Below are positions 54,374-58,436 of a DNA stretch of 64,000 bases, piece by piece. The notes below the pieces were generated by a model. It searched no databases, was not told where the DNA came from, and saw only the letters and a list, made by a program, of their open reading frames with translations. This DNA is from Methanopyrus sp. SNP6 (lineage in GTDB: Archaea > JAADCQ01 > Methanopyri > Methanopyrales > Methanopyraceae): NCBI RefSeq assembly GCF_002201895.1, contig NZ_CP019436.1, positions 1,091,867-1,155,866 of the forward strand. Direction: 5' to 3'. Both the position numbers and the translations under genes were made by a program. Numbering within the stretch: position 1 is the stretch's first letter; the number at the start of each line of letters is the position of its first letter.

Positions 54374-55405
54374 GTGAAGCCTGTGTTGGAGCCACTCACT
54401 GAATATCACTCGATCGATGACGACGAACTTGCGGCTCGGTTCATGGTAGCACGGACCGTTCCAGTCGAAACCACGGAGGGGGAGCTAGAGGACCTGTGGA
54501 AGGAACACGATGAAGCGATGGAAGAGTTCCGCGCAAGGTGGGAAGAGCGTCCCGCACCCGGGGATCTCGAGGAGACCTCGCCGAACCTCCTCGACTTGAA
54601 GCTGGAGATCGCCCGGAAGATCCTCCGCGAATGCACGTTCTGCGAGCGGAGGTGTCGTGTCGATCGGGCCCGTGAAGATGGGTTCTGTCGGGTTCCAATC
54701 AAACCCAGGATTTCCTCGGAGTTCCTGCATATGGGCGAAGAACGTGTGCTTGTACCCTCACACACTGTGTTTTTCTGCGGGTGTACGTTCCGATGCATCT
54801 ATTGTCAGAACTGGGACATAGCTTTCCAGCCGACCAACGGGGTGTACGTTGAGCCGGAGTCACTCGCCCGAGTGATCCGGCACCGGCGATCTCGAGGTGC
54901 TAGGAACGTGAACTGGGTCGGGGGAGACCCAGCACCGAACATTCACTACGTTCTGGAGGTGCTCAGGCGGCTCGACGTGAACGTCCCGCAGGTTTGGAAC
55001 TCCAACATGTACTTGACCGAGGAGGCCATGAGGCTGTTGGACGGCGTTATTGATCTGTATTTGACGGATTTCAAGTACGGCAACGACGAGTGCGCGGAGA
55101 AGTACTCGAACGCCCCGAATTACTGGGAGATAGTGACCCGGAACCATCGTGAGGCGGATCGGCAGTGCGACTTGATCGTGCGTCACCTCGTTTTACCAGG
55201 TAACGTGGAGTGCTGTACGTTTCCGATCCTGGAATGGATCGCCGAAGAGCTGGGTACGGACACGCCGTTGAACGTTATGCCCCAGTACCGCCCGGAGCAC
55301 CGTGCGTACGAGTATCCGGAGATAAACAGGCGACCGTCCGCGAACGAACTGGAAAAAGCGTGGGAGAAGGCGAGAGAACTGGGGCTCCGATACTACCGGC
55401 TTTAA
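54374..55405 (+). CDS. PflA-like radical SAM protein (COG1313 type)
   Basis: 343 residues. An N-terminal cysteine group ([19 protein letters not shown]) precedes the radical SAM motif CTFRCIYC near residue 140, then WVGGDPAPN. This matches archaeal and bacterial homologues of pyruvate formate-lyase activase-like proteins whose target is usually unknown. With nrdD in the window lacking an adjacent activase, activation of NrdD is conceivable, but true NrdG proteins are shorter and lack the N-terminal cysteines. Start GTG 54374 or GTG 54383. Its stop overlaps the convergent fruB stop by four bases. Confidence 0.8.
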
Positions 55406-56319
55406 AGGGATTCGTGCACCTTGCCCGGTTCCGGTAGGCCGAGCTCCTTTCGCTCCTCGATCTCTTTCTGGTTCTTGTCCTTCTTCACTTGTGCGAGCTT
55501 TTGAACGAGGCCGAGACCCGGCTTGACCTCCTCGATACTCTTCACCTCCAGCAGACCCTGATCCACCATGTCGTCGAGTATCCCCTTTGCCTTCTCTGTC
55601 CGCACGATCACGGTGCTCCATCCGTCAGGTGAACCCACCGAGCCGGCAGTTAGATCGGATAGCTCGGCGCAGTAATCCGTGCACACGTGACACGGTTCAC
55701 CCTCGAAGGGATGCGTTTCGTTGATAGGGATCGACTTCACCTCACCGTCCTTCGTGTACACCCAGAACTTGCCCTTACCGATGTCCATCTTGGCGACTTC
55801 GCGCACCCACACGCCGCAGAGTTGTTCGATGATCGTCTTCATACCCTCGTACGGAAAGTTCTCCATGCAGATGATCCCTATCAGTAGCTCGATTTTGTCC
55901 GGGACGTGCCTCATCCCTATCGGGCAGAACTGTGCTTTACGGACGGCCCGGATCTGGCATGGGGTTCCTACCATCGCCACTTTCTCACAGCCGTAGCTCC
56001 TAACTGCCTCCTTGAGAACGCTCACGTTAGGACAGTACGTATACTTGGTCCCAGCCGCCTCCAGGACCTCGTCCGGGTCGGTGATGACCACGGGACGTGG
56101 CTTCCACGGCTCCTCGGTGTCGTCCGGGTCCGCGACGGCGGCGATCACACCGTCGAATAGTCCTTCCTCGAGGCCGTAGATCATGACGGCGGAGACGATC
56201 CCTCCGTCCTGGGTGATCTTTGTTATCTTGCTCTCGGTCGAGCGGGCCGTAAACACGCCGAGGTGGTCTCCCAGCAGCTCTGGATCACCCTTAACCATGA
56301 TTTCGTCCAACTCGCTCAC
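55402..56319 (-). CDS. fruB: Coenzyme F420-reducing hydrogenase beta subunit
   Basis: 305-residue FrhB/FpoF-type subunit that binds FAD and a [4Fe-4S] cluster and passes electrons to F420. Blocks: [43 protein letters not shown], and [31 protein letters not shown], where the clustered cysteines and the glycines of the flavin site sit. GTG 56319, two bases after the fruG stop. Last gene of fruAGB. Confidence 0.92.
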
Positions 56320-56321
56320 GG

Positions 56322-57023
56322 TTACTCATCCCCCATGATCATCTCCTTGATGGCCTCGTCGCCCGGCCAGATCGTCCTCGGGCACTGCGTGAAACACGCA
56401 CCACACTTGATGCACCGGCTCTCGTTTACCACCGGCCTGCCGTCCACGATCTCGATCCCCCGCGTGGGGCAGGCCGCCGCGCAGGTGCCGCACCCCGTAC
56501 ACATGCTCTTGTTCACCACGTGGTACATCAGGTCGCAACCGCAGTACTCCGTCTTACCTTCCGCTAGCTTCGCGAACGGTTCGAGCAGCTCCTCTTTACC
56601 CTCCAGAAGGAGCGTTAGGAACCGCTCGATAGCTTCGGGTGCCGGTGGACATCCCGGGACGGCGTAGTCGACGTCCGCTACCTCCGTGAGTGGTACGAAC
56701 GCCTCGTGCGTGGGTGCCGCCTGCTGGTTCCCCCGAGAGAATCGCATGAAATTCCCCGTACTCGCGCACGCACCTAGTGCCACGATCGTGTCGGCGTGCT
56801 CCTCCAGCTCCTCTACTTCTTCTAGCATGTGCTCGTCGTTCAGGCATACCGCGCCTTCCACGATGACCACATCACACTCCGGAATCTCACGTTCATCCAT
56901 GAGGGTCTGGCAGTAGACCAGCTCGATAGATTCCAGTATGTCCAGAAGTCGTTCGTACGTATCGGCTAGGGACACTAAACATCCACAGCACCCGGCCAGT
57001 TGTACATAGGCCACTCGGACCAA
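56322..57023 (-). CDS. fruG: Coenzyme F420-reducing hydrogenase gamma (small) subunit
   Basis: 233 residues. The small-subunit part has [29 protein letters not shown] and [11 protein letters not shown], which ligate the proximal cluster; the C-terminal ferredoxin part has [17 protein letters not shown] and [14 protein letters not shown]. It relays electrons from the NiFeSe site to FruB. TTG 57023 with GGGGGTG upstream gives the usual VRVAYVQ start; the open frame to 57173 would run through the SECIS region and is rejected. Confidence 0.92.
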
Positions 57024-57133
57024 CTCAACACCCCCAATCCGAAGGGGAAGAAAGGTGGAAAGAACGGGAGAATGTAGGTCAAGGGTGTCAAGGTCTAGGT
57101 GAGGAAACTGGCCCCCCGCGTGGGGGGCGGTCG

Positions 57134-57185: not shown

Positions 57186-58436
57186 TTAAGCGAGCTTAAC
57201 CACCGACTCCCGGATCTTCTCCCGGGAGTCGGCGTCGCGGACTTCCTTCACCACGTGAGCGGCACACGATGCTCATATGTCGTAACATCGCATGATAACC
57301 TCGGCATACTCTTCGTGCTCTCCCTCTATGGACTTCTCTACCACCGGGAAGTTCCACGTGGAAGCTGCAATGATGCGATAATCCTCGACGATACCCTTCT
57401 CGTTCACCTTAGCGATGTGCACGTTGGTGCCCCGTGGGGCTTCGTGAACTCCGATTCCGACTCCCGACCTCGGCTCCCACTCGGCTATGGTCTTACCGCT
57501 GGTGTTGAGTTCGTCCAGGATCGTCATCGCCCGGTCGATAGCTGCTAGTGTTTCCTGTGACCTTAATACATGGATGTACAGGACTCCGTGTGGATCCACT
57601 CCATCGAAGAGCACGTACCTGGCTCTTGGTCCGACTTCTACCGGAACACCGTCGTAAAGCGGGATCTGGCCCCGATGCTGGTACGCGACTTCCTTGTGCT
57701 CCTCTCCGTAGTACTCGATTGGAAGCAGCTCCACCACGCGGTCCATGTCCAGCCGGTCGGGGTCCCCATAAGTAGTATGTGTAGCCAGGAACGGCTGGTC
57801 GTGTCTGCCGAATTCGTCGATGTCGAGGTCGTTCTTGTCGCCGAACCTCTCGACGATGTTTACCATGAACTCGTGCTGCTCCATCATCAGTTCGCGCGCC
57901 TCACGTAGCTTGCGGTAAAGCTTCCTACGCGCCGCTTCCGAGATGTTCTCGGCCATCCCTCCGATCCTAATGTTGGGTGGATGGATTCCCTCACCTCCGA
58001 CCACGTCCACCACGTACTGTCCGATCCGCCTGATCTGCTGGATCCTCTTGATCGCCTCGACCTTTTCGTCCTCATTCTCGACGAAATCATCCAGTACCAG
58101 CAACTGATGGAGCACGTGAGACTGAATCCTGTTACCTAAGGCGCAGAGTTCTCGCAGGAGTTTCCCGTCCTTGGGAGGTTCGATGTCCATAGCCCGCTCG
58201 AAGGCCTCGGCGGACGCGGTTCCGTGCGTCGCCTGACAGATTCCGCAGATCCTCATAACGGCTACCTGAACGAACTCCGCGGGCCTTCCCTTTGCCAGCG
58301 CTTCGAAACCTCGGACCGCCGAAGTATTCAGGTAGAAAGCGCGCTCCACATAGCCCTCGTCGTCGACGTATAACACTAGCTTAGCATGACCTTCATGTCT
58401 CGTGGTCGGTTGAATCTCCACGGCACCCTCCGCCAA
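57186..58436 (-). CDS. fruA: Coenzyme F420-reducing [NiFeSe] hydrogenase alpha subunit, selenoprotein
   Basis: Large subunit that binds the NiFe(Se) centre. N-terminal metal motif RICGIC; C-terminal motif in which UGA at 57275-57273 replaces the first cysteine: CYDI-U-ASCAAH. Reading through UGA continues to TAA at 57186-57188, giving about 416 residues with a 22-residue tail after the histidine, the tail normally removed by a maturation protease. A SECIS follows in the 3' UTR. Start uncertain: TTG 58436 (GGGGGGTGAGG upstream) or GTG 58421; ATG 58484 lies in a TATA-like TTTTATG. No frhD protease gene in the cluster. Confidence 0.93.

Follow-up and report, generated by a model that had tools for sequence, protein, structure and literature searches.

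Predicted selenocysteine decoding of an in-frame UGA in fruA, a hydrogenase alpha-subunit gene of Methanopyrus sp. SNP6

Introduction

Selenocysteine (Sec)-containing F420-reducing hydrogenases have been described for Methanopyrus kandleri and for members of the Methanococcales. In M. kandleri (AE009439), the read-through protein was matched to "coenzyme F420-reducing hydrogenase subunit alpha" (PMC1242214). The archaeal SECIS element is defined by a GAA/A internal loop together with G-C clamps and is located in the 3' untranslated region (3' UTR), and that of Methanococcus maripaludis fruA has been dissected in vivo, which revealed that two A residues of the GAA are indispensable (PMC11881835). 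An AUGA_GA motif is present in all Methanopyrus frhA SECIS elements, and UGA stop codons overlapping the AUGA motif were reported for Lokiarchaeia (PMC11227280). The FruA selenoprotein, its principle, and its SECIS element are thus already known, for these archaea since the early 2000s.

Here, a stretch of 64,000 nucleotides from Methanopyrus sp. SNP6 (contig NZ_CP019436.1, positions 1,091,867 to 1,155,866; hereafter the window) was analyzed with regard to an earlier note, which had proposed that an in-frame UGA in fruA is read as Sec. The features of the locus are collected in Table 1, in which positions are those of the window.

Table 1. Coordinates of fruA, its 3' UTR elements, and the neighboring genes in the window
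Feature	Position	Strand	Basis
fruA (frhA), alpha subunit of F420-reducing [NiFeSe] hydrogenase	57186..58436	-	TIGR03295 profile, homologues
In-frame UGA, at the start of the metal-ligand motif UxxCxxH	57273..57275	-	frame, conservation
TAA, true terminator of fruA	57186..57188	-	frame past the UGA
Post-Sec C-terminus, ASCAAH-VVKEVRDADSREKIRESVVKLA	57189..57272	-	purifying selection
Archaeal SECIS element, shortly past the fruA TAA	57134..57168	-	fold, comparison in seven genomes, pair table
Further G-C hairpin of 7 bp, past the SECIS element	57111..57128	-	fold; conserved in Methanopyrus
fruG (frhG), gamma subunit	56322..57023	-	TIGR03294, 408.1 bits
fruB (frhB), beta subunit	55402..56319	-	TIGR03289, 421.3 bits

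The fruA gene and its reading frame

The product of fruA matched the NCBIfam profile TIGR03295 (frhA) with 523.5 bits against the curated equivalog cut-off of 392.5, and its closest solved relatives are the alpha subunits of F420-reducing hydrogenases (PDB 9r51, 3zfs). Both metal-ligand motifs of the family are found in the protein, namely RICGIC (RxCGxC) near the N-terminus and DI-U-ASCAAH (DxC/UxxCxxH) near the C-terminus, where U stands for the TGA codon at 57275-57273 (- strand), which is in frame with the FrhA open reading frame (ORF). Beyond this codon the frame reopens as ASCAAHVVKEVRDADSREKIRESVVKLA and, as the earlier note had described, proceeds through ASCAAH to the TAA at 57186. 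The assignment of ASCAAH to the conserved C-terminal ligand motif of hydrogenases also stands, with the UGA aligned with the first Cys of DPCISCATH in PDB 9r51. A standard gene caller would indeed stop at the UGA; the loss would amount to 29 residues (Sec plus 28), rather than the 30 given previously.

The longest ORF begins at ATG 58484 and would place Sec at residue 404. This codon was rejected as a mechanical ORF start, similarity to the homologues being lost upstream of TTG 58436. TTG 58436 is probably the real start codon, since the homologues show no similarity upstream of it and GGTGA lies at 58445-58441 before it; the protein predicted from this start comprises 416 amino acids with Sec at position 388.

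The fruA gene lies directly upstream of fruG (TIGR03294) and fruB (TIGR03289), the arrangement of an operon. The start of fruG is probably TTG 57023, and ATG 57173, a mechanical ORF start that overlaps the fruA 3' UTR, was rejected. The latter codon (- strand), which a gene caller would choose, is the AUG of the AUGA motif of the fruA SECIS element, and automatic annotation therefore likely extends fruG wrongly by 50 residues.

Conservation of the UGA codon and the downstream codons

The comparison covered five Methanopyrus genomes (G000-G004, of which G000 is the present genome), two further methanogen genomes (G025 and G046), and three more distant homologues (L023-L025). A single TGA interrupts fruA in the four other Methanopyrus genomes (81-96% identity), so that TGA occupies this codon in 5/5 Methanopyrus genomes searched, and the agreement of these five genomes makes an assembly error unlikely as its source. 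The same codon is TGA in G025 and G046 (55-56% identity), and Cys (TGT) is encoded at this position, with no stop, in L023-L025 (45-46% identity).

The 16 codons that follow the UGA specify 16 identical amino acids across the five Methanopyrus genomes. Within these codons, the synonymous and nonsynonymous differences numbered 8 and 0 in L018 (p = 1.5e-5), 6 and 0 in L019 (p = 2.4e-4), and 5 and 1 in L020 (p = 4.6e-3), where 75% of the changes would be expected to be nonsynonymous; L017 showed zero nucleotide differences. As judged from these substitutions, the codons downstream of the UGA evolve as coding sequence, and the open frame is not a product of chance.

The SECIS element in the fruA 3' UTR

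Shortly past the terminator, the 3' UTR reads from 57168 to 57134 as CGCCGCGGG-GAA-CCCCG-AAA-CGGGG-A-CCCGCGGCG, which folds into a basal stem of 9 bp, a kink-turn-like GAA / A internal loop, an apical stem of 5 bp, and an AAA loop, and thereby matches the definition tested in vivo in M. maripaludis (PMC11881835). The GAA is situated 116 nt downstream of the UGA. The whole 80-nt stretch containing the element folds with -47.2 kcal/mol (z = -3.96 relative to its own shuffles), and the AUGA motif is seen at 57173-57170, with GA just beyond the basal stem.

A SECIS element occurs 3' of fruA in 7/7 UGA-containing genomes, among which the GAA/A core and the G-C clamps are invariant and the sequences of the stems and the loop vary. 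A two-sided change affects one basal pair, for which four Methanopyrus genomes have G-C and the fifth has C-G; covariation taken alone provides modest evidence, because the element is nearly identical within Methanopyrus. No SECIS-like element was seen by eye in the 220 nt past the stop codon of the three Cys homologues. An Rfam scan of the locus gave no match, and the Rfam library may be without an archaeal SECIS model. The strong G-C hairpin immediately following the SECIS element (Table 1) may be a terminator, an mRNA stabilizer, or a chance structure.

Selenocysteine machinery and decoding of the UGA

The genome, a single contig of 1,421,521 bases, encodes tRNA-Sec (65.4 bits, anticodon UCA), SelB, SepSecS, PSTK, and SelD, each of which scored above the curated cut-off, and the SelD gene is itself interrupted by UGA. 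A search of this genome with an IUPAC pattern of the SECIS core yielded 17 matches, compared with 2 for the reversed control. Among the matches examined, four fold as SECIS elements and are located after selD, vhuU, vhuD, and fruA; all four are also present in a second Methanopyrus genome. The tally covers elements that fit the pattern, from which those of fwuB, fdhA, and hdrA selenoproteins may differ. The matches at 678098 and 720741 were rejected, as neither a SECIS fold nor an upstream UGA-interrupted gene accompanies them.

Paralogous to FruA in this genome are a Cys-encoding gene of the VhuA/VhcA type (L004), VhuA accompanied by a separate VhuU that contains UGA (L005/L008), and hydrogenase-like proteins that are more distant. 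No second frhA-family gene above the cut-off and no Cys-type FrhA copy were found in the genome. The earlier note had regarded another intact FruA C-terminus encoded nearby as an argument against Sec; the motif is present once in the window. By profile search, the genome appears to encode no alpha subunit of an F420-reducing hydrogenase other than FruA, and the enzyme would therefore depend on selenium.

If the UGA were a true stop codon, as a standard gene caller would take it, fruA would be a pseudogene or would encode a truncated protein without Ni ligands; this is very improbable in view of how strongly the frame past the UGA and the SECIS element are conserved across species, the complete Sec machinery, and the status of fruA as the sole frhA-family gene above the cut-off. 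No specific evidence favors near-cognate readthrough of the UGA as another amino acid, such as Trp or Cys, and this reading is likewise very improbable: homologues have a metal-ligand Cys at this position, tRNA-Sec(UCA) and the SECIS element are present, and in M. maripaludis the homologous element of fruA brings about Sec insertion in vivo (PMC11881835).

On the strength of the conserved TGA, the canonical archaeal SECIS element, and the complete Sec machinery, the proposal of the earlier note is upheld, and the fruA UGA is almost certainly decoded as Sec, which is predicted to serve as an active-site nickel ligand. In the proposed mechanism, Sec-tRNA-Sec would be formed via seryl-, phosphoseryl-, and selenocysteyl-tRNA by PSTK, SepSecS, and SelD. 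Archaeal SelB would then deliver Sec-tRNA-Sec to the UGA at 57275-57273 during translation, and the 3'-UTR SECIS hairpin, with its kink-turn-like loop, would direct this delivery. Following incorporation, Sec could coordinate the nickel of the active site. The 22 residues after the His of the motif probably constitute a maturation peptide removed by a hydrogenase endopeptidase, as suggested by the chain 4ci0_A, which ends at the residue aligned with this His.

UGA as selenocysteine codon and as terminator

In selD, vhuU, and vhuD of this genome, UGA occurs in both roles. Relative to the GGGGAA core of the SECIS element, the terminator UGA of selD (near genome position 17959, L045) lies 10 nt upstream and its Sec UGA 967 nt upstream; the corresponding distances are 27 and 93 nt in vhuU (near 478208, L051), and vhuD (near 854604, L059) has its terminator UGA at 27 nt and two Sec UGAs at 381 and 228 nt. 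In fruA, the Sec UGA precedes the core by 113 nt and the UAA by 26 nt. The fruA genes of L018 and L019 end at the UGA belonging to the AUGA motif, whereas the gene in the window terminates at UAA with AUGA out of frame. In L020 the gene ends at a UGA earlier than the motif, and in L070 (G001) the UGA of AUGA is still in frame behind UAA.

The UGA terminators of selD, vhuU, and vhuD, located 10-27 nt before the SECIS core, suggest that UGAs too near the SECIS element are not recoded. In these mRNAs, UGA would signify Sec at a distance of at least 93 nt and termination at 10 or 27 nt before the core; we give even chances to this reading, which would imply that archaeal SECIS action follows a rule of position, the limit lying somewhere from about 27 to 93 nt ahead of the core. 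A shallow literature search found no description of such a spacing series for Methanopyrus.

Comparison with known systems

In relation to the FruA/FrhA selenoproteins of M. kandleri and the Methanococcales, the gene described here is orthologous, with the UGA at the same position and a 3'-UTR SECIS element of the same type. The protein of the nearest relative (G001) is 96% identical to FruA, and the differences are at the strain level only. The finding is correct but already known, as follows from the list of read-through proteins (PMC1242214) and the description of the frhA SECIS elements (PMC11227280). Since gene callers truncate FruA, the annotations of Methanopyrus FruA need to be checked for a missing ligand motif.

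FrhA of Methanothermobacter (PDB 3zfs, 4omf, 4ci0) and that of Methanothermococcus (9r51) belong to the same family and possess the same ligand motif; in contrast to the Sec predicted for FruA, the Methanothermococcus protein has Cys at the first ligand position in the alignment. The bacterial [NiFeSe] hydrogenases (e.g., 5jsh, 1cc1) are likewise hydrogenase large subunits that are named as selenocysteine-containing, and carry Sec at the active-site position. Unlike FruA, however, they are periplasmic, have a SECIS element directly after the UGA, and share remote sequence similarity with the archaeal protein.
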